Origin: Aporrectodea caliginosa
Taxonomy: Eukaryota > Annelida > Clitellata > Crassiclitellata > Lumbricidae
Assembly (NCBI GenBank): GCA_020284085.1
Contig: JACEVL010000460.1
Coordinates: 186,001-250,000 of the forward strand
Length of the DNA: 64,000 nt
Reading direction: 5' to 3'
In this document: positions 5,498-57,191 of the stretch, one piece after another
Layout: the number at the start of each line of letters is the position of its first letter
How positions within the stretch are numbered: the stretch's first letter is position 1
Translations under genes and position numbers: made by a program
The notes under the pieces: model-generated
The model's input: only the letters and a program-made list of their open reading frames with translations
Databases searched by the model: none
What the model was told of the DNA's origin: nothing

Positions 5498-6326
5498 TGT
5501 AACGATTTTTGCCCTGATGTTAACGGGTACATCTTTATTTTATTTGAACTCAATGATCTTCTTCTGAACTTGATTTGGACTTGATGAACTGTCCGCAAGC
5601 GGTAATCGCTCTAATGTACTTTGCGCGTACTCGATAACCTTGTAGCGTGTACTCGATAAACTTGAGGCGCACTGTTTAAACTCTAAACCTAGCCAGACGG
5701 CTAGACATATGTCTAGACAGGCGATTAGACAAAGGACTCGCGCCTTAAAAGGCGTATAAATAAGGCCTCGCTTAGTTAAGGAAAGGAGTAACAGGGTTTT
5801 AGTCGATGAAGTCAGTCGTCGGTGAACGGTCGATCAGTTAAGTCGTTGATTAGTAAGCAGTAGTCAGTAATCTGGATCAGTGATAAGTAATGAGTGATAA
5901 GTGATCAGTAGTCGTTTAAGAGACGGTTAATTCGTCTGATTAAGATTCGTTACAGTACATCTTTTGCGTCGGAGCCTACTTTTATGGTTCATTCTGCGAG
6001 TAGAGTTCATTTGACGATTGTTTAACTAATTAACTACGGACAAAAAGTAATCATCTTTCTTTATTACTTCGATTGATGTTGGAGATATAACTGTATTTCT
6101 GTTGATGAAGAATACAATCAGTCAACTTCAGAACGGCAATGTTTCTTTCCATTTCATCGTCTCAGGCTGACCGCTTGAGCCTTACCCAAGCCGACATATG
6201 TACTAGACTAAGTTTGCGGCGGATCCTGGTATAACTTTAACCTTAGTCTAGGGAATTATCATCCACCCACGGTGACAATACATTAACTTTGCCACTTGGT
6301 TGGCCAGCAGGGGTGGAAACGTTACA
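5498..6326 (+). repeat. 5' LTR of the Gypsy element
   Basis: 829 bp beginning TGTAACG and ending CGTTACA, a 7-bp terminal inverted repeat obeying the TG...CA rule. It holds a GTCTAGAC palindrome at 5711-5718, a TATA box (TATAAATA, 5755-5762), and, downstream, many overlapping GATAAGT/ATCAGT-like words at 5860-5920. An imperfect 12-13 bp stem lies at 6203-6214 and 6239-6251. It differs from the 3' LTR by a 5-bp indel and scattered substitutions. Confidence 0.93.
5711..5762 (+). promoter_or_regulatory. LTR promoter: GTCTAGAC site and TATA box
   Basis: GTCTAGAC (5711-5718) is followed 36 bp later by TATAAATA (5755-5762). The same pair is in the 3' LTR at 13278-13285 and 13322-13329. GTCTAGAC is identical to the palindromic Smad-binding element known from vertebrates; whether any protein binds it here is unknown. 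Confidence 0.6.
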
Positions 6327-6407
6327 AAGTGGTACTCTCGAAGCGGGGTAAGAAGTTGTGATTTACTTGAAATTGATTGTTGCAATTGATCATTTTCTTT
6401 CTACGAA
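6327..6407 (+). promoter_or_regulatory. primer-binding site and leader with splice donor
   Basis: Directly after the LTR comes aag then tggtactctcgaagcgggg, which starts with TGG as expected for a site complementary to a tRNA 3' CCA end; I cannot name the tRNA. At 6348 the sequence ggg/gtaaga is a good splice donor. Gag begins at the ATG at 6408. Confidence 0.55.
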
Positions 6408-9400
6408 ATGGATTTGGAAGGAACAAGACATTATACGCTTTTGGATGAAGCTTCTTCGCTTGACCGCCCAGAAATTTCGACGCCTGTGGAGAAAGAAACG
6501 ACGAAAGCGTCGGAACAATATAAAATGGAGTCACGAAAATTTTGGGAAAGTACGGACATGGATTTCTTCGACCGTCCAACAGCGGACCGTTCAGAGAAGA
6601 AGCCGGTTGTCGGTACGAATGTGATGGGGATGGATTCAAGATTTGCAGATGAACTTGGTGGTTTAATTGGCAACAGGAAAATGCTAATGAAGCCTGGAAA
6701 ATTTGATGGAACTGGGTCTTTGGAATCATTTCTGACGCAATTTGAAGTTTGTGCTCGACATAATAAATGGACGAGTGCAGACAAAGTGGATTTTCTACGA
6801 TGTGCATTGGACAAAGCGGCAACACAACTCTTATGGGATTTTGGTGCTAAAGAGGATGCCAGTTATGAACAGTTGGTTGAGCGACTCAGACAGCGTTATG
6901 GTGCAGAAGGTCAGTCGGAGACATATCGAGCACAGCTATACTACAGACGACAGAGAACAGATGAAAGTTTGAGTGACTTACTCCATGACATTCGTCGGTT
7001 AGTTGTTCTTGCATATCCAGTACCTTCTAGTGAAACAACAGAAATTGTTGCTCGAGATGCTTTTCTCGAAGCGATCAGGGATCGCGAGTTGTCTCTTAAG
7101 GTGCGCGAAAGGGAACCAAGGACAATAGATGAGGCATACCGGATGGCCTTGCGGCTGAGCGCATATCAACAGATGTCTGAGAGTGATGATCGCCGACGAC
7201 CACCTAATCGTGTTCGAGGAACACAAGGGATCGAGACGGGCATGCAGATGCAAGCGCAACTTGATAGCTTTTTCTCAGCTCAGCGGAAGTGGCAGCAGCA
7301 ATTAGAGGAGAACCTTTCAAGACAATTGGAAGAATTAAAAGGCAATCGTCCTCCGATAAATCAGAATACACAGCCATCTGTCTCTTGGACTAATCCAAAC
7401 ACACGATACTCCGACGTGAGGAATAACGGACGTGATCGAGCCTGTTTCAATTGTGGCCGTTCTGGTCACTTGGCTCGTCAATGCCGTCAGCGACGCGGAA
7501 GGCCTGGTCCTGCTGCGCGTGAGGAAACATTAGATCCGTCGATGGTAAATACAGAGGAGGCTATCGTCACAAATCACACTACGCATCAGCAACCACGGAT
7601 TATTACGGATAATGCTATCTACATACGAGCTACTATTCATGGACGGTCCAGGATGTGTCTTATTGATACCGGCTCTGAAGTAAGTATCATACCATCTGGC
7701 TATGTTGAAGGGCTAGAATTGCAACCCAGCTCGCATGTTCTGTTGGCTGCAAATGGCACAGGGATAAGAGTCTTGGGAGAATTGGTTGTCCCACTGAAAC
7801 TTTGGCCTGGTTTTGATTTGCCCACTCGCTTTCTTGTTTCCGATCAAGTTTGTGAGGTGATGCTCGGTATGTCATGGCTTAGACAGCATCGGTGTCACAT
7901 CGGTTTTGGAATTGGTGCACTTTTTGTTGGAAGGAGGCGTATTCCATTGGTAAAGGGTAATGGCTCCTCATGGTGTCGGCGTGTAGTTGTTGCGGAAGAG
8001 ATGGTGGTGTCTCCTCGATCTCAATGTGATGTGCTTTCTAAAACTCTATATAGCAATCTTTCTGTTACTGCACCGGCGTGGATGACAGAAACTTCTTCTG
8101 TGGCGCCCGGAGTTTATGTAGCTAGAATTGTAGTGGAGGATACAGCAGATACCACTCCAGTTAGGGTGATCAACTTGGGTGAGCAACCCGCAAAATTGTG
8201 CAAAGACCAGATCATTGGTGAGTTGCATCCAGTTCAAGTGGCCGAGAGCATAGCAAATGGAAGTTCAGGAAGAACTCTAGCTGAAAGTCAGGTAGTGAAT
8301 GAATTAATGAAAGATATTTCTGATGAGGTGCCTGCCGATGCAAGAGAACGACTGAAAGATATGTTGACTCAGTATACTGATGTGTTTTCAATATCAGAGG
8401 ATGATTTAGGCCGAACTAATTTATGTGAACACCGAATTGATACGGGTGATGCGCGTCCTGTTAGACAGCCATTGAGAAGACAGCCGTTGTTCTATAAAGA
8501 TGCAATTGAGAAACAGTTGGACCAGATGCTTGCCACGGGTGTAATAGAACCTGCTATGAGTGAATGGGCTGCTAACGTGGTGTTGGCCAAAAAGAAAGAC
8601 GGCACGTTACGGTTCTGTATTGACTATCGACAGCTCAATGACAGGACAAAGAAAGACTCATATCCTCTTCCTAGAATAGATGAATGTCTTGATGCTCTTT
8701 CCGGGGCAGGATGGTTCAGTACATTTGATTTGAGAAGTGGATATCACCAGGTTACTTTGAATTCTGCTGACGCTGATAAGACCGCTTTTGTGACTCGAAA
8801 AGGGATTTTTCGCTGGAAAGTGATGCCTTTTGGTTTGTGTAATGCCCCGGCTACCTTTCAACGTTTAATGGATATCGTCCTATCGGGATTGAACTTTGCA
8901 GTTTGTCTAGTTTATCTGGATGATGTCATAGTATTTGGAAAGTCTTTGGAGGAACATCTGAACAGAGTGGAATTAGTTTTCCAACGCTTGAGACTGGCTA
9001 ATTTGAAATTGAAGCCCAGTAAATGTCATCTTTTGAGACGTAATGTTTGCTTCTTGGGGCATATCATTTCCTCGGAGGGAATCGCTGTAGATCCAGTCAA
9101 GGTACAGGAGGTTTTAGAATGGCCCGTTCCAGAGAAGTTGAGGGATGTTCGATCGTTTCTTGGGTTGTGCGCCTATTATCGGAAATTCATATTGAACTTT
9201 TCTGGGGTGGCCGCTCCTCTTTTTGCATTGACGAAGAAGGAAAGACAGTTTGTCTGGAGTCCTTCTTGTCAGGAAGCTTTTGATAAATTGAAATTAGCCT
9301 TAACAACCTCTCCGGTGTTAAGCTTACCTGTAGATTCGGCTACCTACGTGTTAGACTGTGATGCTTCGGATGTGAGCATAGGAGCAGTTCTGTCTCAACG

Positions 9401-11195
9401 GATTGATGGAATGGAGAAGGTTATAGCCTATGGAAGTCGGTTATTCTCAACGTCCGAGAGGAATTATTGCATTACCCGGAAAGAACTATTAGCTGTGGTC
9501 CACTTCACCAAAGTGTATCGGCAATACTTGTTAGGTAAACGTTTTGTTATGAGGACCGACCATGCCGCACTACAATGGTTGCAGAAGACACCTGAACCAA
9601 TAGGTCAACAAGGACGTTGGCTGGAACGCCTTGCGGAGTTTGATTTTGAGATTGTCCATAGACCAGGGCGACAGCATGGGAATGCGGATGCTTTATCACG
9701 GAAGCCTTGCCGTCAATGTGGAAAAGATTATACACTGGTTAGGGAAGTGATTAGCACAGCTGATTCGGCCGAAGGAGATGGGATGTTGTCAATGGCCAGA
9801 GCTCAGAAGGAAGATGCCACACTTAGTGTTGTGAGAGGATGGTTGAGTGCAGGAGCTGATATGCCCTCATTTCAGGAACTACTGTGTGAAAGTGAAGAAC
9901 TCAAGGTCTACTGGTATCAAAGAAATGCCTTGAGTATTAAGAATGATGTTTTGTACAGAACGATCCCCGAAGCGGTAGAACAGATGATTATACCAAAGAC
10001 GATGAGAGAAGAGTTCCTTAGATTAGCGCATACCGGTATTACTGGTGGTCATCTGGGTATTCGACGGACCCGATGCCAAGTACGCCGAAGAGCCTATTGG
10101 GTAGGCTGGTCGAAAAGTGTGAAACGGTATTGTCGGCAATGTAACCGTTGTTGTCAGTATAGACGGGGACAACCTCCGAAACAAGGACCCTTACAAACCA
10201 TACCGTGCGGTGAACCATGGGAGAGATTGAGTCTCGATATTACCGGTCCCCATCCCAGAAGCAGGAAAGGACAGGTGTATATTCTAACGATGATGGATAA
10301 TTTTTCGAAGTATGCAGAAGCCATACCAATGGCTAACCAGGAAGCCACCTCGGTAGCAAAGGCTCTGGTTGAGAATGTGATTGTCCGATACGGGGCACCA
10401 CTCCAAATCTTGACCGATCAAGGTAGAAACTTTGAGAGCACGCTGTTTCAGGAGGTATGCCGATTGTTGGAGATTGATAAAGTTCGTACGTCGAGCTACC
10501 ATCCTAGGTGCAACGGCCTGATCGAAAGATTTCATCGGACCCTTAATTCGATGTTAGGCAAGGTAGTAGATGTTCATCAGCGTGATTGGGACGAGCGACT
10601 ACCGTACGTCATGGCTGCTTATAGAGCGTCGTGTCATGAAGCGACAGGGTTTTCCCCAAATTATCTTATTTTCGGTGGAAAAGAGAATCGAGCTCCCCTG
10701 GATATTGTTTTTGGACATGTGGATGAACCTGATGGAGAGAGGCCAACCTACTCAGTCTTTGTAGAAGACATGTTAGAACGCATGGAGGATGCTTATCGGA
10801 TGGTGCGAGAAAGTCTTAAGAAAGCAGCTGAACGACGTAGACATCGCTATGATTTACGTGTAAAATCGCAAACGTTTCAAGTGGGGGAATGGGCATGGTA
10901 TTTCACCCCTCGTCGTTTCAAAGGAAGAACCCCCAAATGGCAGAGAAATTTCACAGGACCGTTTATGATAGTGGGAGTGTCTGGTCCGATTAACTATTGG
11001 ATTCAGAAATCTCAGAAAGCTAAAGCTTTTGTAGCACATGTGGACAAGTTGCGTCCGTGCTATGGTCGAAAGAAGGGAGAATGGGTAGATAGACCAGAAA
11101 GTCCAGACGAAGGGAGGGTCACTGAAGAAAGGCCAGTGATTTCAGTTATCGATCGGCCGCGCCGTACTATTAGACAGCCGGTGCGATTTCAGTAG
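6408..11195 (+). CDS. Gag-Pol polyprotein of the Gypsy element
   Basis: 1595 codons in one frame with no internal stop or frameshift. The N-terminal Gag is followed by a CCHC knuckle (CFNCGRSGHLARQC, about residue 346), an aspartic protease (LIDTGSEVSIIPS, about 417), RT with YLDDVIVF (about 834), RNase H (DCDASDVSIG, about 983), and integrase. Integrase shows an HHCC zinc-binding start (H..GITGGH...C..C, about 1205-1248), catalytic D, D and E in LDITGPH (1276), LTDQGRN (1335) and NGLIERFHR (1370), and a GPF/Y module near 1517. No chromodomain is visible. Gag and Pol share one frame, so no frameshift site is needed. All catalytic residues I can identify are present. Confidence 0.95.
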   Translation: MDLEGTRHYTLLDEASSLDRPEISTPVEKETTKASEQYKMESRKFWESTDMDFFDRPTADRSEKKPVVGTNVMGMDSRFADELGGLIGNRKMLMKPGKFDGTGSLESFLTQFEVCARHNKWTSADKVDFLRCALDKAATQLLWDFGAKEDASYEQLVERLRQRYGAEGQSETYRAQLYYRRQRTDESLSDLLHDIRRLVVLAYPVPSSETTEIVARDAFLEAIRDRELSLKVREREPRTIDEAYRMALRLSAYQQMSESDDRRRPPNRVRGTQGIETGMQMQAQLDSFFSAQRKWQQQLEENLSRQLEELKGNRPPINQNTQPSVSWTNPNTRYSDVRNNGRDRACFNCGRSGHLARQCRQRRGRPGPAAREETLDPSMVNTEEAIVTNHTTHQQPRIITDNAIYIRATIHGRSRMCLIDTGSEVSIIPSGYVEGLELQPSSHVLLAANGTGIRVLGELVVPLKLWPGFDLPTRFLVSDQVCEVMLGMSWLRQHRCHIGFGIGALFVGRRRIPLVKGNGSSWCRRVVVAEEMVVSPRSQCDVLSKTLYSNLSVTAPAWMTETSSVAPGVYVARIVVEDTADTTPVRVINLGEQPAKLCKDQIIGELHPVQVAESIANGSSGRTLAESQVVNELMKDISDEVPADARERLKDMLTQYTDVFSISEDDLGRTNLCEHRIDTGDARPVRQPLRRQPLFYKDAIEKQLDQMLATGVIEPAMSEWAANVVLAKKKDGTLRFCIDYRQLNDRTKKDSYPLPRIDECLDALSGAGWFSTFDLRSGYHQVTLNSADADKTAFVTRKGIFRWKVMPFGLCNAPATFQRLMDIVLSGLNFAVCLVYLDDVIVFGKSLEEHLNRVELVFQRLRLANLKLKPSKCHLLRRNVCFLGHIISSEGIAVDPVKVQEVLEWPVPEKLRDVRSFLGLCAYYRKFILNFSGVAAPLFALTKKERQFVWSPSCQEAFDKLKLALTTSPVLSLPVDSATYVLDCDASDVSIGAVLSQRIDGMEKVIAYGSRLFSTSERNYCITRKELLAVVHFTKVYRQYLLGKRFVMRTDHAALQWLQKTPEPIGQQGRWLERLAEFDFEIVHRPGRQHGNADALSRKPCRQCGKDYTLVREVISTADSAEGDGMLSMARAQKEDATLSVVRGWLSAGADMPSFQELLCESEELKVYWYQRNALSIKNDVLYRTIPEAVEQMIIPKTMREEFLRLAHTGITGGHLGIRRTRCQVRRRAYWVGWSKSVKRYCRQCNRCCQYRRGQPPKQGPLQTIPCGEPWERLSLDITGPHPRSRKGQVYILTMMDNFSKYAEAIPMANQEATSVAKALVENVIVRYGAPLQILTDQGRNFESTLFQEVCRLLEIDKVRTSSYHPRCNGLIERFHRTLNSMLGKVVDVHQRDWDERLPYVMAAYRASCHEATGFSPNYLIFGGKENRAPLDIVFGHVDEPDGERPTYSVFVEDMLERMEDAYRMVRESLKKAAERRRHRYDLRVKSQTFQVGEWAWYFTPRRFKGRTPKWQRNFTGPFMIVGVSGPINYWIQKSQKAKAFVAHVDKLRPCYGRKKGEWVDRPESPDEGRVTEERPVISVIDRPRRTIRQPVRFQ

Positions 11196-11431
11196 GTGTT
11201 TAGGGTCGTTTGGTGTACATTGTTTGGTCCATATGTTGTTTACTCCTTTTCGTTTATTCAGGGCGGGTATGCCCTATTCTTTTTGTCTCATTTGCATATT
11301 CGATGAAAAGCCTATCTCTTGTCTAGACTGATTGACTTGTTGCCCCTGCGTGTGACACCCGCTTTTGCACTCGATGGTTTGGTGTCGGAATTGGTTTTCT
11401 TTTCTTTTCCATTTTGGTTTGAACGCTTACC
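11196..11431 (+). promoter_or_regulatory. pol-ORF2 gap with splice acceptor and GTCTAGAC
   Basis: A 236-bp non-coding gap. At 11235-11261 a pyrimidine tract (tttactccttttcgtttattcag) forms a strong splice acceptor, which paired with the donor at 6348 would give a subgenomic RNA with ORF2 first. A GTCTAGAC palindrome lies at 11321-11328. Small overlapping frames here appear to be chance. Confidence 0.5.
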
Positions 11432-12067
11432 ATGGAGACAGCTTATCCACTTGGTCGGCCTGTCCTTGGAAATAGGACTGAGAGTTGTGGTGAATTTGGG
11501 CCGGAAGTATCTTCATCTTTGGATGATTATCTTAACTATCGATTCTATCGATCAGCGACTAGAAGATTTGTACCAAGCATGGACTCTCAGGAGGAAAGAA
11601 GGAAGTATTTAAAACAGAATCTTTCAGAAGGCACTACGCCTATCGCGAGTTTCTGCATGCTACCTGACATGGATTCAGTAAAAGATATGATGGATACACT
11701 TTACATTGGAGAAAAGCCAAAGAGAATACCTCCTAGTTCATACTTATGCCATCTGTGCTTTAAGAAAGGCCACTATATTCGGGATTGTGAACTGGCCTAT
11801 TCACGAGAACCGGGCATTACTCCTTATCAAGGTAAAAAGAAATGCTTTGGAGAATTCATCTGTCATCAGTGTAATCGAACATGGAAATCCGGAAATAGTT
11901 GGGCCAACATGGGACAAGAGTGTGGACGATGTCGGGTGAATATCTACCCTCGTAGGCAACGACCTCTGCAGAAGGGAGATCGTGCACATGAAGCAGACAA
12001 GCCACATCTCCAGCACTTGTGTGAAATGTGTAAACGAAAGGGATCATCTTGTCAACTTGGTGACTAA
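11432..12067 (+). CDS. ORF2: ZCCHC24-like zinc-finger protein in the Gypsy element
   Basis: 211 codons starting METAYPLGR. From about residue 100 it reads PSSYLCHLCFKKGHYIRDC, a CCHC knuckle; then TPYQGKKKCFGEFICHQC, then WKSGNSWANMGQECGRC, NIYPRRQRPL, and HLCEMCKRKGSSC near the end. This is a 3CxxC-type zinc-finger block. The order, spacing and wording resemble the C-terminal half of the conserved animal protein ZCCHC24, a small RNA-binding-type zinc-finger protein; I recall that family from memory and could not align it. The N-terminal 100 residues are polar and not recognised. Standard Gypsy elements have no such gene. It sits where env would be. Likely a captured host gene, now single-exon. 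The function in the element is unknown; RNA binding is an inference. Confidence 0.8.
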   Translation: METAYPLGRPVLGNRTESCGEFGPEVSSSLDDYLNYRFYRSATRRFVPSMDSQEERRKYLKQNLSEGTTPIASFCMLPDMDSVKDMMDTLYIGEKPKRIPPSSYLCHLCFKKGHYIRDCELAYSREPGITPYQGKKKCFGEFICHQCNRTWKSGNSWANMGQECGRCRVNIYPRRQRPLQKGDRAHEADKPHLQHLCEMCKRKGSSCQLGD

Positions 12068-12416
12068 CTATATCAGACATTATTTGCTGATTTGATTATG
12101 ACGTTGGATCTCATCACAGCTGAAATGATTGGACGTTGAATTTTGTCGTTTTCTTCACGTTGGATTTTATTAACATTGATTACTCCGTTGGATTATTTAC
12201 ATTACGTTAACAAGATATTTTCGGTCTAGACAGATGTCTAGACATGACGTCATGCAGTTGCTGGATTAGTAAATAAGTTTAGTGGGTCAGCCTATTTTGT
12301 TAATCATTTGTTCCTAAGACGCTGTCGAAGTTGGATGACGCTCGTTGGTGCTTACTTGCGGTCGAAGGGAATAACTTTCTAATCATTCTGTTGCAATTTA
12401 AACTGATATTGCCCTG
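12068..12416 (+). promoter_or_regulatory. ORF2-ORF3 gap: twin GTCTAGAC palindromes and a CRE
   Basis: A 349-bp non-coding gap. Within 29 bp it holds GTCTAGAC (12224-12231), GTCTAGAC (12236-12243) and TGACGTCA (12245-12252), the last being the full palindromic cAMP-response element. The cluster is about 165 bp upstream of the ORF3 start, so it could be an internal promoter for ORF3. I see no TATA box between the cluster and ORF3. Confidence 0.45.
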
Positions 12417-13004
12417 ATGGAATCTACTACGGAAATAGCAGCGACGACATCTACGAGTAACAGAATCTACACAGTATCATGGTCAGGAGATTTTTCACCT
12501 GCCACTACACAAACGGTGAGCTCTGACATAAAAAACAGTGTAATGCCTTGTGTTGGATTGGAGACGAGCATTATGCCTCGTTATGAGGACATTTCCGCAA
12601 CAGATTCTCTTCCAGATCTGGAATTTGCTGATGATATATTGAAAGATATGTTAGAGATGCCCAGTAGCCAAGTTTTCTTTCGGGAACTGTCGGATAATGA
12701 TCTTCTCATCGGCGATGATTTGCCATTTAGTGCAATGAATAATCAGGCTGGTATGGGGAGTATTTCGTCTGAGGAATTGTTGCCAGTGGAAGAAAAGGAT
12801 TCACCAGTGTCCGGGAATTTATTGAGGGACGTTTTTCGGGCTGCCAGATGGCTAATCACTGGAACGACCCGTGAACAAGGTGTTCGACTGTTGCGCCTTC
12901 GTTTCCCAGCCTGTCCGGAGTGGATCTTATGCGCCGCAGTCGAGTGCTATCAAACCATGGGACTGCCAGGAAGTGCAGAGGAACCAATTACCATTGATGA
13001 TTGA
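12417..13004 (+). CDS. ORF3: unknown acidic protein of the Gypsy element
   Basis: 195 codons beginning MESTTEIAATTSTSN. The first 60 residues are Ser/Thr-rich. Residues about 60-125 are acidic with spaced hydrophobics (DLEFADDILKDMLEM, ELSDNDLLIGDDL), a composition like that of activation domains. Residues about 130-185 (LLRDVFRAARWLITG... and LRFPACPEWILCAAVECYQ) look like a compact helical domain. It ends EEPITIDD, which resembles a SUMO-interacting motif. There is no signal peptide, transmembrane segment or Env feature. I do not recognise the family. It ends 55 bp before the 3' LTR. Position and openness suggest it is a genuine gene of the element, perhaps regulatory, but that is inference. 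Confidence 0.65.
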   Translation: MESTTEIAATTSTSNRIYTVSWSGDFSPATTQTVSSDIKNSVMPCVGLETSIMPRYEDISATDSLPDLEFADDILKDMLEMPSSQVFFRELSDNDLLIGDDLPFSAMNNQAGMGSISSEELLPVEEKDSPVSGNLLRDVFRAARWLITGTTREQGVRLLRLRFPACPEWILCAAVECYQTMGLPGSAEEPITIDD

Positions 13005-13059
13005 AATCGTCTAAAGAGTTCTGAGCGAGGACGCTCATTTTTTCTTTGTCAGGAGGAAT

Positions 13060-13893
13060 TGTAACGATTTTTGCCCTGATGTTAACGGGTATATCTTTAT
13101 TTTATTTCATCTGAACTCAATGATCTTCTTCTGAACTTGATTTGGACTTGATGAACTGTCCGCAAGCGGTAATCGCTCTAATGTACTTTGCGCGTACTCG
13201 ATAACCTTGTAGCGTGTACTCGATAAACTTTAGGCGCACTGTTTAAACTCTAAACATAGCCAGACGGCTAGACAACTGTCTAGACAGGCGATTAGACAAA
13301 GGACTCGCGCCTTAAAACGCGTATAAATAAGGCCTCGCTTAGTTAAGAAAAAGGAGTAACAGGGTTTTAGTCGATGAAGTCAGTCGTCGGTGAACGGTCG
13401 ATCAGTTAAGTCGTTGATTAGTAAGCAGTAGTCAGTAATCTGGATCAGTGATAAGTAATGAGTGATAAGTGATCAGTAGTCGTTTAAGAGACGGTTAATT
13501 CGTCTGATTAAGATTCGTTACATTACATCTTTTGCGTCGGAGCCTACTTTTACGGTTCATTCTGCGAGCGGAGTTCATTTGACGATTGTTTAACTAATTA
13601 ACTACGGACAATTGGAATCATCTTTCTTTATTTCTTCGATTGATGTTGGAGATATAACTGTATTTCTGTTGATGAAGAATACAATCAGTCAACTTCAGAA
13701 CGGCAATGTTTCTTTCCATTTCATCGTCTCAGGCTGACCGCTTGAGCCTTACCCAAGCCGACATATGTACTAGACTAAGGTTGCGGCGGATCCTGGTATA
13801 ACTTTAACCTTAGTCTAGGGAGTTATCATCCACCCACGGTGACAATACATTAACTTTGCCACTTGGTTGGCCAATAGGGGTGGAAACGTTACA
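13060..13893 (+). repeat. 3' LTR of the Gypsy element
   Basis: 834 bp, TGTAACG...CGTTACA, preceded by the purine-rich aggaggaat. It contains the same TATA box (13322-13329) and GTCTAGAC (13278-13285) as the 5' copy. Here the hairpin is perfect: CTAGACTAAGGTT at 13770-13782 against its complement at 13806-13818. The ten bases after the LTR (aagtggtact) repeat the bases that follow the 5' LTR. Confidence 0.93.
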
Positions 13894-17814: not shown

Positions 17815-20691
17815 TCAGAATGTTGGGGCCATGGTCGAGTGTCTGTACAGTACTCGGGAAATGTAATTTCTGTCGTCCTTTCTTGGAAGCTCAAAGCTGT
17901 GAGGGCGAGGGCGCAGACTATATGGCCTGTGAACCCTTGGTGGAAACAGGTCGAGCAGGACGTGCGTGTTCTGTCGCATCACAGCTCGCAACAGCCGGCC
18001 CTCGATGTCGCGTACGAGCGCATCAACGCTCATGATGTCGGGCGGTAGAAATCCCAAACGCTGCATCTTGTTATGGAATCGCTCGAGCCTTAACCGGTCC
18101 TCAGCTGTTGTTAGACCCCACCAAGCCGGGGCGGCGTAGAGGAGGCGCGCAGTAGTTGTAGCTCTGGCGACGGTATGGAGGGCCGCTGATTGCAGTCCGT
18201 GAGCTCTCAGGACGCTCAGGGCGTAGATGGAGGAAGAGCAGGAACCCAGGATTCGATCGACATGCGCAGAAGCACGCAGGTCACTGCTCATTGTAACTCC
18301 GAGCACCACCATGGAGTCAACCCTCTCCAGACCTGGGAGTGGTGGAGGGAGGGTAACCCCCCTTGACCGTCGGCTGAACACCATCTCCCGAGACTTATTT
18401 GCGTTGAGCTTTAGGTGGTTATGTGTGGCCCAGGTCTCAATTGCATCAAGCTCCGTCGTCAGGGTTGTTCGCATCGAAGCAGGGACGATAAGATATGTAT
18501 CGTCCGCATACTTGACGATTTTGTTCTGCTGATGGACAGGTTGCAGATCTGATGCGTCGACGACATAATCAGATGGGCCGACACCGGATCCCTGGACCAC
18601 ACTGGAATTGATGGGAGCTGGCTCTGACTGGCGCCCACCGTAGCGCGTTGAATGGCTCCGACCCTGCAGAAAATCGATCAGCCAGTTGTAGATGTTATCA
18701 GGCATATCGAGTTGGGATAGTTTCTGAGCAAGGACGGAGTGGCGGACAGTGTCGAACGCCTTTGAAAAATCTAGAGAGATGACAGTCACGTGTTCCTCGG
18801 TCTGCAGGAAGGAGGTGATATGATGAACCATGGATATGAGCGCTGCAGTTGTTGAACCCGACGGCCGGAAGGCATACTGATCACTGAGGAGGTGAGACAT
18901 TGGAGGGCTGCAGAAGGCAGGATACATGTATGTCTGCACAATCTCCCTTTCAACAAGTCGGGATAAAATCGGGACGATGGAGATAGGTCTGTAATCAGCA
19001 GGGTTTTGCGGTTGATCGACCTTTGGTACTGGGTGTATGATTGCCATTTTCCACTGGATCGGCACGATGGAGGTAGCCACTGAGAGATTGATGAGGTGTG
19101 CAAGAACTCCAGAGTATGCAGGGGCAGTCAGTCTCAGGTACCATGCTGGGAGGCGATCAGCACCATCAGCTGTATGGTGCAGCCGGTCGAGCATGTTAAA
19201 GACTCTTTGTTCGTTTGTAAATGGCCGATCAAGTGCCACTGTTGACTTCTTGGGTGGCTCTATGTAACCATCGTCGGTTGAAATCCTGGCATAATGTGTG
19301 TTAAAATCTTCAGGAGAAGGAGCATCTTTTACCTCACCTCTGTCTCGCCCTTTTGTAAGATCATTGACTCGCCTCCATAGTTCTTTAGGTCCATCTTGGG
19401 GGTGAACTCCACGCAAGTGAGCTTTGGAGGCTCGCTCGATGCATTTGCCCACACGCCGGGCACATGCCGAGGCCTCTTCGGTGCGTCCTGCTCTCATCAG
19501 CCTGTTCTTTCTTCTGAGGAGATGTTTGCACTCTGGAGTGATGAAGAAAGGGTCAGCGGAGGTGATCGTGACGGTCCTCATAGGATATACTTGGTTGAGG
19601 CGCCCCAATGCCTCGATGTAGAATTGGTCCCAGGCAGGCTGAGCTTCATTGATGGCAAAAATATCAGATAGGTCAGCCTGGGAGAGGTCTCTGAGGAGGG
19701 ATGCGTGCTGTTGAGGAGTACGTCTGCGAAAAGTGACTTTTACAGGACGTTTGCTTCGGCTTTTAACTGGCCCATCAGAGGTGGCAATGATGGCTTTATG
19801 GTCTGTTTTTACGGCCGATGTGACGATTTTTGTGCTGGTGTAACATGGTTGTGATACGAATAGTCTGTCCAAGATGTTGTCGCCACGAGTTGGTTGGTGG
19901 ACTAGAGGGATCAGTCCAGTGCTTTGTATCACCTCACATTCTTCAAGAGCATTTAAATCGCCTCCGAGTATTAGCAACGCGCCTGGTTCTGTCAGTGAAA
20001 TCGTCTCGACGGATCTTTCAAGCCTAGCTAGGAGGATGGTTTTCTCATATATGGGCCTCGGAGGGTGGTAGAGGGCACCGACGTATATCACACCGATTGG
20101 ATGTATTACCCGGATCCAGAGCAGCTCGAGGTTTCTAACGTCGTCGGCAACATGGTATTCTGAGGCTGGGTATTCATCCCGAACCAAGATGGCTACCCCG
20201 CCCGCTCGCCGGGCAAGCCGATCGCGCCGAAATAGGTGAAAACCCTCGGTTCGGAGGGTGCTCTGCGGATGATGGGTCTTGTAGTGAGTCTCTGTGATAA
20301 TTGCAATACCCATGTCGTATCCGTTTAGGTCTGCAAGCAATTGTTCGAGAGCATATGGCTTAGCCAGCGAACGAGCGTTTATGACATAGATGCCTGGTGG
20401 TGAACGTATTGAGCGTATTGAGGATCGCAATGACGGTGGCGGCAGGGCAGAGGTTGGGTGCCGTGGAACGGTGACTAGGCAGCGGATCAGAGTTGTTCGG
20501 TGAACCGTGCCAGCCAAGCGTGCTGACGATAGTATAACTTCTATCGCGCGTTGTTTCCTCACGCCTGCTCGACACCCCCTGTAACGAAGGAGACGGAGTT
20601 CAGCTAGAATAGCGGCAACAGTCGATGGTAGGCCACTCGCTGCCTGCCGAAAACCATACAGCCGGCGTCGACTGTACCTGTACTCCCGCAT
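17815..20691 (-). CDS. intact LINE ORF: endonuclease and reverse transcriptase
   Basis: 958 codons without interruption. The N-terminal endonuclease (EEP fold) shows NARS (about 105), TETH (about 134), GGVAILV (about 164), GGDLNA (about 243) and TDHKA (about 294). RT motifs follow: DYRPISIVPILSRL, DQYAFRPSGSTTAALI, DFSKAFDTVRH (about 640), VVQGSGVGPSDYVV and KYADDTYLIV (about 727). The C-terminus ends FELPRKDDRNYISRVLY. The target-primed retrotransposition machinery therefore looks complete. Its RT type (QGS.GP.DYVV, KYADDTY) is Jockey-superfamily-like; the exact clade is not assigned. I see no convincing ORF1 upstream (20692-21010), so ORF1 is either absent or lost. Confidence 0.93.
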   Translation of the reverse strand: MREYRYSRRRLYGFRQAASGLPSTVAAILAELRLLRYRGCRAGVRKQRAIEVILSSARLAGTVHRTTLIRCLVTVPRHPTSALPPPSLRSSIRSIRSPPGIYVINARSLAKPYALEQLLADLNGYDMGIAIITETHYKTHHPQSTLRTEGFHLFRRDRLARRAGGVAILVRDEYPASEYHVADDVRNLELLWIRVIHPIGVIYVGALYHPPRPIYEKTILLARLERSVETISLTEPGALLILGGDLNALEECEVIQSTGLIPLVHQPTRGDNILDRLFVSQPCYTSTKIVTSAVKTDHKAIIATSDGPVKSRSKRPVKVTFRRRTPQQHASLLRDLSQADLSDIFAINEAQPAWDQFYIEALGRLNQVYPMRTVTITSADPFFITPECKHLLRRKNRLMRAGRTEEASACARRVGKCIERASKAHLRGVHPQDGPKELWRRVNDLTKGRDRGEVKDAPSPEDFNTHYARISTDDGYIEPPKKSTVALDRPFTNEQRVFNMLDRLHHTADGADRLPAWYLRLTAPAYSGVLAHLINLSVATSIVPIQWKMAIIHPVPKVDQPQNPADYRPISIVPILSRLVEREIVQTYMYPAFCSPPMSHLLSDQYAFRPSGSTTAALISMVHHITSFLQTEEHVTVISLDFSKAFDTVRHSVLAQKLSQLDMPDNIYNWLIDFLQGRSHSTRYGGRQSEPAPINSSVVQGSGVGPSDYVVDASDLQPVHQQNKIVKYADDTYLIVPASMRTTLTTELDAIETWATHNHLKLNANKSREMVFSRRSRGVTLPPPLPGLERVDSMVVLGVTMSSDLRASAHVDRILGSCSSSIYALSVLRAHGLQSAALHTVARATTTARLLYAAPAWWGLTTAEDRLRLERFHNKMQRLGFLPPDIMSVDALVRDIEGRLLRAVMRQNTHVLLDLFPPRVHRPYSLRPRPHSFELPRKDDRNYISRVLYRHSTMAPTF

Positions 20692-31613: not shown

Positions 31614-32500
31614 ATGCTGATGTGCTATATCGGGAGGAGACCGGTTGGAAACGCCAGAATCTCCAGCTACGTGCTATGCTCTACAAGCGATTAATTCATT
31701 CCGTACGAAACTATGCACTTACATTGGGCCAGATTCTGATTCCAGTCCTTTTCGCTATACTCGCCTGCCTCATCCTTTTGGATCCACCAAGAGACGAAAA
31801 CGATTTTAAACCTCTGACCCTTGACTTAACCCACTTTACAAGTCCAATCACGCCATACGACGTTCTAAATCAAACCTCAAACGCTCAGAAATTGTCATCT
31901 TGCTATAACACTAGTATTTCAATGCAGAGTAAACCTGTATTAATCAGCTCCGAACCGGGATACTCCACAATGGATGACTACCTGATAGGGATCGGGAAAA
32001 ATCACATAGACCAGTACATCAGGATCTACCAGATCGGTGCTACTGTAGAAGAAGACTCTGATGGAAAGTTGAACATTACAGGACTTTTCAACAACCAAGC
32101 CTACCACGCGATCGCCATCTCATTATCGTACTTGGGAAACACTCTGATGAAATGCTTTGGCAACAAGGATTACCAGATCGAAACCATCAACCACCCACTT
32201 CCCAGAAACTTATCGAAACAGATGACGGAAACCGCGTTTTTTCGACAATTTAAGGGATTTGGTTTCTCCCTCCTCGTGTCTTTTGGTTTGGCCATCCTCT
32301 TCCCCACTTTCGTGGTCTTTCTGATCAAGGAACGAAATTCAGGAGCCAAACACAGCCAACTCGTGAGCGGAGTCAGACTGCGTAATTTCTGGCTGGCAAC
32401 ATTCATTTGGGATTACGTCAATTACCTCGTCCCGTGTATCTTGATCATCGTCATCATCCTTGGCTTTCAAATTGATGGTTACTGGCAGAATTCTTGGTTG
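31614..32500 (+). CDS. ABCA-type transporter exon: TM7 and large extracellular domain 2, copy A
   Basis: The largest exon, 887 bp. It opens at atttcag with H-ADVLYREETGWKRQNLQLR, then TM7 (LTLGQILIPVLFAILACLIL), a hydrophilic extracellular stretch of about 150 residues with NQT, NTS and NIT sequons, and then FKGFGFSLLVSFGLAILFP (TM8). The cytoplasmic turn LIKERNSGAKHSQLVSGV is the typical ABCA motif, followed by FIWDYVNYLVPCILIIVIIL. The donor is either ttg/gtatac (end 32500, phase 0) or ttg/gttggt (end 32496, phase 2); each fits a different acceptor of the next exon. The exon is fully open, unlike its duplicate at 44234. Confidence 0.92.
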
Positions 32501-32877
32501 GTATACAGTTTGTAAATATTACCATTTAAATCTCGTTCATTTGCTCACAATGCCAGTAGCCTATAAAAGGAAATAGTAGAAAACTAGAAAAACTAGAGGG
32601 AAATGGAAGAGGAGAGGAAAGAAAATGAACAGGAAGACGAACAAGAATAAGAAGTTAAAATATAGGCCTACTGTGTCCCAAATGACCTGATGCCCTTTTT
32701 GTTTTTGCAATATGTCAATTCTAAAACATAGTTCAGTAAAACTTCAACTTTTGAAAGAGGGATAAATTATCTTTGTGTTTCGGAAATTGCATCAAATTCT
32801 ATCAACAGGGTCCAAAGGTGTACATCCAAAGTTGGACAGACAAAATTCGAATTTTCCAGCATGTAACGATATTTTTT

Positions 32878-34408: not shown

Positions 34409-34978
34409 GTCTTAAAATTTTAATCAAACTCAAACTCAAATGATCTTTACTGAAAGCCATTTTCTTTTATTATCGCCTCCTAAATGGAAATGAAGTTATT
34501 AACATATATTCTTTAGTGAGTAAGGTATGCATTTTAAAGTTTTTTATCATTTACATGTTGGAAAGTTCGAATTTTTTGGGCAAATTTGAATGTGCATAAC
34601 TTTGATAGACTAGGCCTATATGTTGCAATTTCCTTAGTTAGTTCATCTCTCTTGCATTCTATAATATTTTATTGAATTATTGTTAGAATTCAAAGATTTA
34701 TTGCCAAAACAAAACGGTTATTATTCCATTGGGACTCAGAGTAGGTCACGGACAAAAATAAGGATAATAATAATATTTAATATTAATAATCTTTATTCTT
34801 TAATGAAGCGCCAGACAAACGCACTGTGCTGTACATGTACATGTTATGACGATTAAACAATTCACAAGAACACAAATTACAGAAGGCAAATCAACAAAGT
34901 TGCAACCATTCAAGGCGCAAGCTCGTTGTATTTTTGAGCATAGCTAAGGAATGAAGCATGAAGAACAACATTGAACAT
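34409..34978. other. intron between LINE and GAA tract
   Basis: AT-rich, unassigned. The part from about 34683 to 34978 is missing in unit B, where the GAA tract starts directly after ttattgaatta. Confidence 0.5.
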
Positions 34979-35722
34979 AGAAGAAGAAGAAGAAGAAGAA
35001 GAAGAAGAAGAAGAAGAAGAAGAAGAAGAAGAAGAAGAAGAAGAAGAAGAAGAAGAAGAAGAAGAAGAAGAAGAAGAAGAAGAAGAAGAAGAAGAAGAAG
35101 AAGAAGAAGAAGAAGAAGAAGAAGAAGAAGAAGAAGAAGAAGAAGAAGAAGAAGAAGAAGAAGAAGAAGAAGAAGAAGAAGAAGAAGAAGAAGAAGAAGA
35201 AGAAGAAGAAGAAGAAGAAGAAGAAGAAGAAGAAGAAGAAGAAGAAGAAGAAGAAGAAGAAGAAAGAAGAAGAAGAAGAAGAAGAAGAAGAAGAAGAAGA
35301 AGAAGAAGAAGAAGAAGAAGAAGAAGAAGAAGAAGAAGAAGAAGAAGAAGAAGAAGAAGAAGAAGAAGAAGAAGAAGAAGAAGAAGAAGAAGAAGAAGAA
35401 GAAGAAAGAAGAAGAAGAAGAAGAAGAAGAAGAAGAAGAAGAAGAAGAAGAAGAAGAAGAAGAAGAAGAAGAAGAAGAAGAAGAAGAAGAAGAAGAAGAA
35501 GAAGAAGAAGAAGAAGAAGAAGAAGAAGAAGAAGAAGAAGAAGAAGAAGAAGAAGAAGAAGAAGAAGAAGAAGAAGAAGAAGAAGAAGAAGAAGAAGAAG
35601 AAGAAGAAGAAGAAGAAGAAGAAAGAAGAAGAAGAAGAAGAAGAAGAAGAAGAAGAAGAAGAAGAAGAAGAAGAAGAAGAAGAAGAAGAAGAAGAAGAAG
35701 AAGCAGAAGAAGAAGAAGAAGA
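34979..35722 (+). repeat. (GAA)n tract in unit A
   Basis: About 740 bp, roughly 240 GAA units with only a few AAAG slips (near 35262, 35404 and 35621). GAA is on the sense strand of the host gene. It decays at the right into gaagatgaagaggaaggag-type variants to about 35850. The poly-E, -R and -K frames are not genes. Confidence 0.97.
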
Positions 35723-36140
35723 AAAGCACGGAGAATACGGAGAAGATGAAGAGGAAGGAGAAGAACAAGACGAACAAGAAGAAACAGGAACAGCAGGAAG
35801 AGGATGAGGAAAAGGAGGACTATGCAGAAGAAGAAGAAGAATTGCGAAAGTGATCTTAATCGTGAAATGATGGAAGCAAAAAAATGAAGAAAATGTGAAG
35901 GATGAGATAATCAAAACCAACAGTTTACAAAAAATGCGGAAAGGCGAAGGAGCTTGAGGGAGGAAACTAGTTATTAGTTTGTGGGCTAGGTAGTATTAAT
36001 ATCATGTCTTATATTTTTTCATAGTAAGTATTTGACCCTCCTACTGCTAACTCGATGGTTCAGACTACGCAAAGTTTTCGTGTAATTTGCGAATACCGAC
36101 AACAGTACTGTTGCTTTACGCAGGTGTGTATTATTTTCAG

Positions 36141-44233: not shown

Positions 44234-45115
44234 ATGCTGATGTGCTATATCGGGAGGAGACCGGTTGGGAACGCCAGAATCTCCAGCTACGTGCCATGCT
44301 CTACAAGCGATTAATTCATTCCGTACGAAACTATATACTTACATTGGGCCAGATTCTGATTCCAGTCCTTTTCACCATACTCGCCTGCTGCGTCCTTTTG
44401 GATCCACCAGGAGACGATAACGATTTTAAACCTCTGACCCTTGACTTAACCCACTTTACAAGTCCAATCACGCCATACGACGTTCTGAATCAAACCTCAA
44501 ACGCTCAGAAATTGTCCACTTGCTATAAAACTAGTGTTTCAATGCAGAGTAAACCTGTATTAATCAGCTCCGAGCCGGGCTACACCACAATGGATGACTA
44601 CTTGATAGGGATCGGCAAAAATCACAAAGACCAGTACATCTCGAAATACCAGATCGGTGCTACTGTAGAAGAAGACTCTGATGAAAAGTTGAACATTACA
44701 GGACTTTTCAACAACCAAGCCTATCACGCGATCGCCATTTCATTATCGTACTTGGGAAACACTCTGATGAAATGCTTTGGCAACAAGGATTACCAGCTCG
44801 AAACCATCAACCACCCACTTCCCAGGAACTTCACGAAACAGGACATGCAAATCGTGTTTTTTCGACAATTTAAGGGATTTGGTTTCTCCCTCCTCGTGTC
44901 TTTCGGTTTGGCCATCTTCTTCCCCACTTTCGTGGTCTTTCTGATCAAGGAACGAAATTCAGGAGCCAAACACAGCCAACTCGTGAGTGGAGTCAGACTG
45001 CGTAATTTCTGGCTGGCAACATTTATTTGGGATTACGTCAATTACCTCGTTCCGTGTATCTTGATCATCGTCATCATCCTTTCAAATTGATGGTTACTGG
45101 CAGAATTCTTGGTTG
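44234..45115 (+). pseudogene. ABCA TM7/extracellular exon, copy B, frameshifted
   Basis: Homolog of the exon at 31614-32500 with the same acceptor. About 24 residues differ from copy A (for example FAILACLIL to FTILACCVL, and DQYIRIYQ to DQYISKYQ). Five bases (ggctt) are missing near 45080, so after LIIVIIL the frame reads SN and a stop at 45088-45090. No alternative donor before the stop is evident. Used alone or together with A it would truncate the protein before NBD2. It is either a decayed duplicate exon, or intact in the animal and damaged in the assembly. Confidence 0.85.
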
Positions 45116-46650: not shown

Positions 46651-46916
46651 TGTCTTAAAATTTTAATCAAACTCAAATGATCTTTACTGAAAGCTATTTT
46701 CTTTTATTATCGCCTCCTAAATGGAAATGAAGTTATTAACATATATTCTTTAGTGAGTAAGGTATGCATTTTAAAGTTTTTTATCATTTACATGTTGGAA
46801 AGTTCGAATTTTTTGGGCAAATTTGAATGTGCATAACTTTGATAGACTAGGCCTATATGTTGCAATTTCCTTAGTTAGTTCATCTCTCTTGCATTCTATA
46901 ATATTTTATTGAATTA

Positions 46917-47726
46917 GAAGAAGAAGAAGAAGAGAGAAGAAGAAGAAGAACGGAAGAAGAAGAAGAAGAAGAAGAAGAAGAAGAAGAAGAAGAAGAAGAA
47001 GAAGAAGAAGAAGAAGAAGAAGAAGAAGAAGAAGAAGAAGAAGAAGAAGAAGAAGAAGAAGAAGAAGAAGAAGAAGAAGAAGAAGAAGAAGAAGAAGAAG
47101 AAGAAGAAGAAGAAGAAGAAGAAGAAGAAGAAGAAGAAGAAGAAGAAGAAGAAGAAGAAGAAGAAGAAGAAGAAGAAGAAGAAGAAGAAGAAGAAGAAGA
47201 AGAAGAAGAAGAAGAAGAAGAAGAAGAAGAAGAAGAAGAAGAAGAAGAAGAAGAAGAAGAAGAAGAAGAAGAAGAAGAAGAAGAAGAAGAAGAAGAAGAA
47301 GAAGAAGAAGAAGAAGAAGAAGAAGAAGAAGAAGAAGAAGAAGAAGAAGAAGAAGAAGAAGAAGAAGGAAGAAGAAGAGAAGAAGAAGAAGAAGAAGAAG
47401 AAGAAGAAGAAGAAGAAGAAGAAGAAGAAGAAGAAGAAGAAGAAGAAGAAGACAGAAGGGCGCTAGAAGAAGAAGAAGAAGAAGAAGCATGAAGAAGAAG
47501 AAGAAGAAGAAGAATGAAGAAGAAGAAGAAGAAGAAGAAGAAGAAGAAGAAGAAGAAGAAGAAGAAGAAGAAGAAGAAGAAGAAGAAGAAGAAGAAGAAG
47601 AAGAAGAAGAAGAAGAAGAAGAAGAAGAAGAAGAAGAAGAAGAAGAAGAAGAAGAAGAAGAAGAAGAAGAAGAAGAAGAAGAAGAAGAAGAAGAAGAAGA
47701 AGAAGAAGAAGAAGAAGAAGAAGAAA

Positions 47727-47757
<31 letters not shown>

Positions 47758-47904
47758 AAGAAGAAGAAGAAGAAGAAGAAGAAGAAGAAGAAGAAGAAGA
47801 AGAAGAAGAAGAAGAAGAAGAAGAAGAAGAAGAAGAAGAAGAAGAAGAAGAAGAAGAAGAAGAAGAAGAAGAAGAAGAAGAAGAAGAAGAAGAAGAAGAA
47901 GAAG

Positions 47905-47933
<29 letters not shown>
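46917..47933 (+). repeat. (GAA)n tract in unit B
   Basis: About 1.0 kb of GAA on the sense strand with a few interruptions (near 46935, 46951, 47367, 47450-47490, 47513 and 47725). Longer than the unit A tract, and it has replaced about 300 bp of flanking intron present in A. The long homopolymer frames are artefacts. Confidence 0.97.
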
Positions 47934-47935
<2 letters not shown>

Positions 47936-48280
47936 GAACAGGAACAGAAGGAAGAGGATGAGGAAGAAGAGGACTATGCAGAAGAAGAATTGCGAAAGTG
48001 ATCTTAATCGTGAAATGATGGAAGCAAAAAAATGAAGAAACTGTGAAGCGATGAGATAATCAGTTTACAAAAAATGCGGAAAGGCGAAGTAGCTTGAGGG
48101 AGGAAATTAGTTATTAGTTTGTGGGCTAGGTAGTATTAATATCATGTCTTATATTTTTTCATAGTAAGTATTTGACCCTCCTACTGCTTACTCGATGGTT
48201 CAGACTACGCAAAGTTTTCGTGTAATTTGCGAATACCGACAACAGTACTGTTGCTTTACGCAGGTGTGTATTATTTTCAG

Positions 48281-49340: not shown

Positions 49341-49538
49341 CGTTTCGAAGTGTTTTGCCAACCGTGGAATGGATATTCCTCGTCTTCTTTCCCACATACT
49401 GCTTCAGTGCTGTTCTTCAGAACATCTACAGCAACTACAACAAACATAAATACTGCAGCCAAATGGCCCTAGGAGTAAAACTTGACGATTTCTGCGCATC
49501 ATGGAAACGACGTGGTCAATCTAATGCATGTTGTCCAG
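49341..49538 (+). CDS. ABCA TMD2 helix and loop exon, copy B
   Basis: Counterpart of 36772-36969 with intact splice sites and frame. Six residues differ (for example QSI to RSV, SQMTLG to SQMALG, CASLKR to CASWKR and SDPCC to SNACC). Outgoing phase is 1, as in copy A, so it could also join the exon at 56129. Confidence 0.7.
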
Positions 49539-49589
49539 GTAAAAGATGTTTGTATGAAATATTTAATTAAAAGCCGCTATATCTCGTTC

Positions 49590-50875
49590 GCATACCAGCA
49601 AATACTGCTCAAGATCATACACAAAAGAATGGAGAGCACAGTGGAGAGAGAGCTGCCGGCAAATCAGGCTGGCTTCAGGAAGGGGCGAGGAACACGAGAT
49701 CACATAGCAAATTTGAGGTGGATAATGGAGAGACAGAGGGAGTACGGCCAGGAGGTACATCTTTGTTTCATCGATTACAGCAAAGCCTTTGACTGCATAA
49801 ATCATTCAGTAATGTGGAAAACCTTAAAGGAGATGGGAATACCAACGCACCTCATCATGCTGCTTAAAAGCTTATATTATGAGAATCAGGAGGCAGTTGT
49901 CAGGACGGAACACGGCGACACTGGAAAATTCAGGATAGGGAAGGGTGTGAGACAGGGATGCATACTCTCTCCGGTCTTGTTCAATTTATATGCTGAAAGG
50001 ATAATTCGAATGGCAGAGCTGGAAACGGCGGGCGAAGGAGTGAAGATAGCAGGACAAATACTGAATAATCTAAGATATGCGGACGACACAACGCTTCTGG
50101 CTGGGAGAAAGGAAGACCTCGCAGAACTAATAAAGAGATTGAGGAGGGAAAGCGAGAAGGCTGGGTTATACTTCAATATCAAGAAAACCAAGATCATGAC
50201 AACGGCAGAGTGGGAAACATTCGAGATAGATGGAGAGGAAATACAGGTCGTAACGAGTTTTTCGTTTCTGGGCTCAATGATCGAAAGAGAGGGTAGATGT
50301 GAGACAGAGGTGAGACGCAGAATAATACTAGCGAAATCAGCAATGCAGGGAATGGGAAAGATATGGAGAGACAGGCATGTGAGTATGGAGACAAAAGCAG
50401 GGCTGGTGAAATCAATGATTTTCCCGATAGTGTTATACGGATGCGAGACGTGGACAAAGACAAAAGCGACAGAAGATAAGATTGATGCATGCGAATTGTG
50501 GATATGGAGAAGATTGCTGGGGATATCGTGGACAGAAAAGAGAACAAATGCATCTGTCATCCAGGAGATAAGGCAATTAAGAGGAGACTTGACACTGCAA
50601 CAAAGGGCCATCAGACAGACATTGATGTACTTTGGACACGTAATGAGAGCAGAGGGATTGGAGAAGGAGATGATGCTGGCGTGTGGGGAGGGGAGGAGGA
50701 GCAGGGGTCGGCCGATAACTCGCTGGATGGAGGAGATACATAAGAGGACAGCGATGAACCTTGCACAACTAAGGGACGCAGTACGAAGCAGGGAGGATTG
50801 GAGGAAGCTGGTCAGGACGGTCGCTAGGGTTCCACGAACTGATGGCACAAGGTGACAAGGTGATATCTCGTATGC
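49590..50875 (+). pseudogene. RTE-like LINE reverse transcriptase fragment, unit B only
   Basis: An open frame of about 415 relevant codons (to 50855). It reads LLKIIHKRMESTVERELPAN, QAGFRKGRGTRDHIANL, FIDYSKAFDCINHSVMW, RQGCILSPVLFNLYAE, LRYADDTTLLAG, GCETWTKTKA, RRLLGISWTEKRTN, YFGHVMRAEGLE and RRSRGRPITRWMEEI. The YADD box is intact. The 5' part (endonuclease, early RT) is missing. There is no poly(A). Near-repeats atatctcgttcgcatac and atatctcgtatgcatac flank it and look like a target duplication. Unit A has the empty site (atatctcgtttgttaacggg, about 37012). The clade is inferred. Confidence 0.85.
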
Positions 50876-56828: not shown

Positions 56829-57191
56829 GTGAATTCGACTAAATAAACCTTGCGTTCTCAGTAAGTCTTATTTGACTGACACATCATGTTGAAATTTAAA
56901 TGTGAGATTAGAAGTAAAGAAATCGATTTAGAATATTTAGAATCTCTTGCTCTGCATTGTTCACCGTTTGTAAATGCTGAAGGCACAGTTCTCGATGCGA
57001 GCCCTAGTTTTTACCCTTTACCTTGCATTTCCTATTCGTATCTTACCTTTGGTTTCGTGTTGGTACATTGATTGCCTTACCTTGCTCTTAGTTATTTTTC
57101 TTTATCTTACGTTTGATCAATTTACCAAAGTATAACATACCTAATAGACTTGTATTGACTTGATCCATATATTGTGTTCTGTTGTTTGTAG

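Follow-up and report, generated by a model that had tools for sequence, protein, structure and literature searches.

The window analysed here, a 64,000-nucleotide stretch of the Aporrectodea caliginosa genome (contig JACEVL010000460.1, positions 186,001 to 250,000), contains a whole LTR element on the forward strand at window positions 5498 to 13893. It is bounded by two direct repeats with TG...CA ends (TGTAACG...CGTTACA), a 5' LTR of 829 bp (5498-6326) and a 3' LTR of 834 bp (13060-13893), which agree at 809 of 828 aligned bases. Judged from the sequence, a putative primer-binding site beginning with TGG lies three bases past the 5' LTR (6330-6347), and a putative polypurine-type tract precedes the 3' LTR (13044-13059). 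A single open gag-pol frame of 1595 codons (6408-11195) yields Pfam matches above cut-off for zf-CCHC (residues 344-361), RVT_1 (728-887), RNase H (RT_RNaseH, 950-1078), Integrase_H2C2 and rve (1270-1366); matches to Ty3_capsid and, in a protease-like region (residues 407-493), to gag-asp_proteas stay below theirs. The TG...CA LTRs together with the order RT, RNase H, integrase identify the element as a Ty3/Gypsy LTR retrotransposon (Metaviridae); a target-site duplication was not recognised at this copy. Two further forward frames follow the gag-pol stop (11195) and precede the 3' LTR (13060), namely ORF2, of 211 codons and with its ATG in the context ACCATGG (11432-12067), and ORF3, of 195 codons (12417-13004), neither of which matches an envelope-type domain in Pfam. 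An earlier note on this DNA had described the 211-codon frame, and its position and quoted motifs proved correct; ORF3 is absent from that note.

The earlier note had likened ORF2 to animal ZCCHC24, and profile and database searches bear this out. Pfam recognises a CCHC zinc knuckle (zf-CCHC_2, PF13696; 41.3 bits against a cut-off of 27) at residues 101-119 (11732-11788) and a 3CxxC zinc ribbon (Zn_ribbon_3CxxC_2, PF17180; 63.7 bits, cut-off 27) at residues 136-178 (11837-11965), and the best 120 of 346 protein-database matches bear the ZCCHC24 domain trio, with E values from 2e-46 to 1e-41. When ORF2 was aligned with 22 of these 120 (23 rows), the Cys/His positions of the knuckle and the cysteines of three CxxC pairs formed invariant columns. 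The ZCCHC24 C-terminal domain (ZCCHC24_C, PF23490; residues 180-207, 11969-12052) is a remnant that reaches only 13.8 bits, under the cut-off of 27, and has no match at E values up to 1 in ORF2 of the copy on C68, a member of the subfamily B described below; we therefore class ORF2 as ZCCHC24-derived, not as a ZCCHC24. ORF2 and animal ZCCHC24 (PMC11624195) have in common the CCHC knuckle, the 3CxxC ribbon and the SGNSWANMGQEC core, while ORF2 differs in its diverged N-terminus, in a tail below the ZCCHC24_C cut-off, and in being intronless and mobile. An AlphaFold2 model of ORF2 is of low confidence (mean pLDDT 52.9), solved structures gave no significant match (best E 0.04), and viral contigs scanned with ORF2 and with a piece of the reverse transcriptase contained no relative.

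ORF2 has at least 35 matches in the 1.1-Gb assembly of the host genome, where the window copy lies on contig C459; these counts are lower bounds. A ZCCHC24-like piece of 84 residues on C1190 was left out of the number of copies. Sixteen copies are near-identical, with ORF2 open in all 16 and 99-100% identical over its 211 residues, and with ORF3 open in the same 16 (96-100% identical). Of the 21 gag matches at 93% identity or more, 19 are accompanied by ORF2, and in the remaining two (C505, C1895) the sequence breaks off or is interrupted before the place of ORF2 is reached. A second group, subfamily B, comprises five mostly decayed copies (C68, C1854, C460, C461, C580) with ORF2 identities of 75-86% and LTR pairs that are 96.4% (C68), 97.0% (C460) and 95.0% (C461) identical. 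Here ORF2 is fully intact in C68 only; it is open with an altered start in C1854 and interrupted by stops in the other three. The two findings that the earlier note named as fatal, lack of similarity to ZCCHC24 and an ORF2 absent or degraded in all other copies, were thus not obtained, intact frames being present throughout the near-identical set, but in subfamily B this holds for one copy of five.

The near-identical copies differ in their upstream parts. The pol tail just ahead of ORF2 is present in nine of the 16; in six (L004, L008, L027, L028, L032 and L033, on C499, C235, C249, C340, C120 and C124) the region from RT to integrase is swapped for about 230 nt of other sequence, and one (C4434) has a different deletion upstream of ORF2, which brings the copies with lost pol parts to seven. 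The six pol-replaced copies have gag frames open over 881-945 codons and retain both ORF2 and ORF3, and their replacement, read in frame, gives a hydrophobic stretch in all but L033. Gag frames open over 1601-1602 codons occur in seven of the 16 and in C1854 of subfamily B. The 3' ends of the pol-less copies are near-identical to those of the full copies and seem to have been gained by recombination. As the 16 copies are moreover young, ORF2 being at most 1.7% and ORF3 at most 4.2% apart, intactness alone is weak evidence for a function. The six pol-replaced copies form a pol-less partner lineage, and their replacement of RT to integrase was also seen in the subfamily B copies L012, L014 and L015. 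Separately, two copies in the same direction on C1265 (L007 at 597050, L005 at 604612) are 7562 bases apart, a spacing identical to that from LTR to LTR in the window copy, and are probably a tandem with a common LTR. In nine of the 16 copies an in-frame ATG precedes the ORF2 start by three codons (window 11423-11425); the window copy and six others have ACG at this position.

We compared the window copy with C68 and C1854 by the Nei-Gojobori method. Within ORF2, the zinc region gives a dN/dS of 0.237 (C68) and 0.179 (C1854), the N-terminus one of 0.70 and 0.58, ten codons being left out for C1854; given this difference, purifying selection seems to act on the zinc domains between subfamilies. 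For the whole frames, which run from stop to stop and so include three upstream codons and the non-homologous start of C1854, the values are 0.42 and 0.38 for ORF2 and 0.205 and 0.187 for ORF3, and parts of gag-pol range from 0.055 to 0.27 (window versus C1854). Neutral simulations reached the whole-ORF2 value in 34 of 2000 runs at a transition/transversion ratio of 3 and in none of 2000 at a ratio of 1, which makes this test only moderate in strength at the higher bias; the ORF3 value was reached in none of 2000. Among the 16 young copies, changes inside the ORF2 frame amount to 3 nonsynonymous and 7 synonymous, a proportion as low as this arising in 28 of 5000 simulations; a fourth nonsynonymous change, the ATG/ACG difference three codons ahead of the start, was excluded from the count. 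The proposal that the element keeps ORF2 under selection thus found support both between subfamilies, in the zinc region, and among the young copies. It also bears on whether ORF2 is simply a processed host-gene copy that fell into one element and has been copied along without function. The genome does contain ordinary retrocopies of this gene that lack introns (see below), the 16 copies are young, and ORF2 is broken or altered in four of the five subfamily B copies, all as a passenger would have it; yet a passenger should not show a dN/dS of 0.18-0.24 in its zinc region against 0.58-0.70 in its N-terminus, nor be carried by both subfamilies and by two decayed copies, and we rejected this explanation as improbable. 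Synonymous divergence climbs along the element, gag-pol giving 0.03-0.14, ORF2 0.27-0.37 and ORF3 0.92-1.13, so that the elements look like mosaics carrying old 3' modules.

A multi-exon host gene, which the earlier note had suggested seeking in the same genome, was found on C5. This ZCCHC24-type gene has two introns with GT/AG ends in its conserved part, after KDCPM and before RPL, both of which are missing from ORF2. A second host candidate, on C934, has an exon end at the same place, with no further exon found. C397 and C671 hold processed, intronless retrocopies derived from the C5 gene, which agree with one another at 98.8% over 2.6 kb and whose protein is the same as that of the C5 gene across the conserved part; the 9.5 kb examined at each showed no gag-pol similarity. 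ORF2 is 45-52% identical to these host-type retrocopies. Its N-terminus, too, resembles residues 1-60 of the host protein, counted from the start codon; only 1 of 1000 shuffles scored as well, and 0 of 1000 for subfamily B. Starfish and fish ZCCHC24 N-termini, however, score about equally (51, 49, 48 and 47, against 50 for the host), and P0001, the closest database relative among the best 120 of 346, scores less (36; 13 of 1000 shuffles as good). An origin of this N-terminus from the accessory finger of sister elements, described below, was rejected, 144 to 615 of 1000 shuffles scoring as well.

Two decayed copies on C461 (at 327 kb and 244 kb) fall between host and element at 32 diagnostic positions, with element-to-host residues of 12:6, 10:7 and 6:4 in the main pieces and 1:2 and 2:3 in small or overlapping ones, compared with 22:2 for a subfamily B copy. 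One old decayed copy, L020 (C461:322500-332400), has ORF3-like pieces both before and behind its ORF2-like piece, which could reflect nested insertions or an early arrangement. We further compared by eye the ORF2 matches with the gag matches of sister elements (98 listed, at 61-74% identity, with 119 of 1947 candidates scored): none of the 98 listed is adjoined by an ORF2 match in its own orientation, although a very diverged ORF2 could escape this comparison. A tree of 37 rows (two ORF2 sequences, four from the host genome and 31 of the best 120 database matches, two of the 33 chosen having been missed by the motif search) unites the ORF2 rows in one clade (100/100); its branch is long and lies apart from all host genes, for which reason the tree does not point to a particular donor. 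P0001, the C5 gene and the retrocopies of the latter fall outside the 30 other rows (95/100, with a midpoint root and bootstrap values that had not settled). The introns absent from ORF2, the intermediate decayed copies and the lack of ORF2 beside the listed sister gag matches together give strong support to the view that the donor was an ancestor of the host gene still present in this genome, and that it was acquired as a spliced mRNA, in line with the uptake of a host mRNA copy that the earlier note had proposed.

The same observations weigh on two other histories. Host ZCCHC24 genes could conversely descend from a retroelement gene, and the unrooted (midpoint) tree, with two ORF2 rows on one side, would accommodate this; however, ZCCHC24 hardly varies among the chordate, mollusc, arthropod, nemertean and brachiopod rows compared, the C5 gene has introns, the decayed copies grade from more host-like to element-like, and no ORF2 match adjoins the listed sister gag matches, so that we considered and rejected this direction as exceedingly improbable. 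Alternatively, the element may have arrived from another species with ORF2 already aboard, as the modest identity of 45-52% to the host-type retrocopies might suggest. Against such a transfer stand the intermediate copies and the further capture of this host gene described below, all within this genome, as well as the protein database, where among the best 120 of 346 matches no ORF2 relative is closer than a host-type gene (its coverage being that of annotated animal genomes) and ORF3 has a single near-identical counterpart; we regard it, too, as improbable.

ORF3, which ends in the acidic tail PITIDD, has no Pfam match, and its one database relative is near-identical. Its likely background is found in the sister families. 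Four of the six sampled (C334, C119, C364, C757) have a post-pol frame with an N-terminal C2H2-like finger, in C119 spread over two frames; C115 has no finger-type post-pol frame, and C20, in which the pol end is unrecognised and a LINE frame lies behind, is uninformative. ORF3 resembles the region behind the finger in C364 and C119 (0 of 1000 shuffles as good in each) and in C334 (3 of 1000). The accessory frames of C757 and C568 showed no significant likeness to ORF3 (675 and 198 of 1000 shuffles scored as well), and a search with the C334 accessory protein matched itself alone (1 of 21 candidates). ORF3 and some of the sister accessory frames end in acidic tails (PITIDD, AIVVEDE, PIALD) that resemble SUMO-interacting motifs in appearance. 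Judging by these resemblances, ORF3 seems to be what is left of the old accessory protein when the finger is taken away, with ORF2 standing just upstream. ORF3-like frames, 31-37% identical, also occur at C221:294807 (L035) and C796:277043 (L036), with no gag-pol similarity in the 3 kb around them.

In a related element on C1038, the same host mRNA has been inserted separately into the accessory gene. Behind the pol C-terminus (ERPRRATRPPLRYR*) lies a 251-codon frame that opens with the accessory finger, resembling that of C334 (0 of 500 shuffles as good), and runs in frame into host ZCCHC24 sequence, 88.8% identical in nucleotides to the C397 retrocopy; the host-derived part extends 4 bases beyond the ZCCHC24 stop, after which accessory-gene sequence resumes. 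A likeness of this finger to that of C119 was not supported (142 of 500 shuffles as good). The relatives on C170 and C568 contain the finger as well as the 3' sequence and no ZCCHC24 match; their accessory frames look shifted or broken. At the 3' join, C170 and the host mRNA have 14 bases (ACTGTAGACGCATC) in common, as expected for template switching, while C568 does not have them; alternatively, the 14 bases could be a remnant of an earlier insert. This capture is a single locus, its upstream part is cut, no LTR was found there, and the sister gag match on C1038 has an orientation opposite to that of the ZCCHC24-containing frame. Since the C1038 frame has no ORF2 N-terminus, ORF2 was not derived from it. 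The ORF2 start (window 11430-11441) and the C1038 5' join (L011:5207-5218) have twelve bases (CCATGGAGACAG) in common, which may be chance.

Capture of host genes is a classic route by which retroviruses gain new genes. To our knowledge, few LTR retrotransposons show a donor, intron loss, intermediates, a readable second capture and selection on the captured domains in one genome. Host-gene capture by LTR elements is itself already known (PMC6431247), and several LTR elements with extra genes can be set beside the present one. Ty3/Gypsy elements of the orchid Phalaenopsis have an extra ORF for an AlkB-type m6A RNA demethylase (PMC9289625), likewise a cellular-type frame in a Gypsy element, acting on RNA, as ORF2 may do; there, however, it is a plant enzyme, whereas here we find an animal-type zinc-finger protein with an identifiable host gene and a second capture of that gene. 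LTR elements of bdelloid rotifers resemble ours in an extra ORF with a cellular-type domain, an ORF3 for GDSL or DEDDy, with template switching proposed, but the authors saw no significant departure from neutrality for it (PMC5408684), in contrast to the purifying-selection pattern of the ORF2 zinc domains. Cer1 of C. elegans has an extra protein, CERV, that acts in nuclear export of the element's own RNA (PMC10309623); CERV is described as a novel protein made from a spliced mRNA, while for the host-gene-derived ORF2 an action on RNA is what we would propose. MDG1-group elements of Drosophila, finally, have an extra small ORF too, sORF2, which encodes a short transmembrane, fusogen-like protein (PMC11952523) rather than a zinc knuckle and ribbon. 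An LTR element with ZCCHC24 cargo, of which the earlier note knew no description, did not appear among the papers listed in the literature searched, which was mainly outside subscription journals, as judged by title and abstract. Because binding and stabilisation of mRNAs by the cellular protein is known from human cells (PMC11624195), the purpose of extra genes in LTR elements becomes directly testable.

The best explanation, to which we assign a probability of about 0.72, is a Ty3/Gypsy lineage that carries an intronless, captured ZCCHC24-type gene with its zinc domains under selection; the intronless copy and the purifying-selection pattern between the two subfamilies are seen directly in the sequences. 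Reverse transcriptase would have switched from element RNA onto the host mRNA and then back, a step suggested by the joins of the second capture at C1038, and the captured gene would have replaced the C2H2-like finger of the ancestral accessory protein, the rest of which would be ORF3. ORF2 may then bind RNA of the element itself and help with its stability, export, RNP assembly or packaging; this is the most likely single role, if at somewhat less than even odds. Such help may be given partly in cis, since gag, ORF2 and ORF3 persist even in copies without RT and integrase. Human ZCCHC24 recognises the motif UGUWHWWA in 3'UTRs and has a stabilising effect on mRNAs (PMC11624195). This motif is not enriched in the 3' part of the element (1 seen, 1.7 expected) or in subfamily B (3 seen, 1.95 expected), which leaves a copy of the human binding mode unsupported; the specificity of ORF2 may differ. 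The main rival to an RNA-helper role would be a host-directed one, in which the ORF2 protein competes with or redirects host ZCCHC24 and so favours element expression or germline access. The zinc ligands kept while N-terminus and ZCCHC24 tail diverged, and the 3'UTR binding and mRNA stabilisation in human cells (PMC11624195), would suit such counter-defence, and the UGUWHWWA counts are neutral towards it; we consider it unlikely. Returning to the RNA helper, a broader version is possible, if doubtful: the clade may have recruited host ZCCHC24 mRNA at least twice into its ancestral post-pol accessory protein, a zinc finger followed by an acidic, possibly SUMO-interacting rest, once with the finger replaced (ORF2 and ORF3) and once with the rest replaced (C1038). 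The host protein would then be a recurrent substitute for a needed RNA-handling module, kept by the pol-less partners because it acts in cis on its own encoding RNA.

Other features of the window lie downstream of the element. Repeated ABC transporter exons occur at 31622-32515, 44242-45090 and 56200-56832, comprising a pair of similar ABC2_membrane_3 frames and a single ABC_tran frame, and LINE-type reverse transcriptase frames at 17815-20691 on the reverse strand, with an endonuclease domain, and at 49482-50855 on the forward strand. Two very long simple-sequence tracts (34910-35920 and 46906-48001) give rise to spurious long ORFs in several frames.
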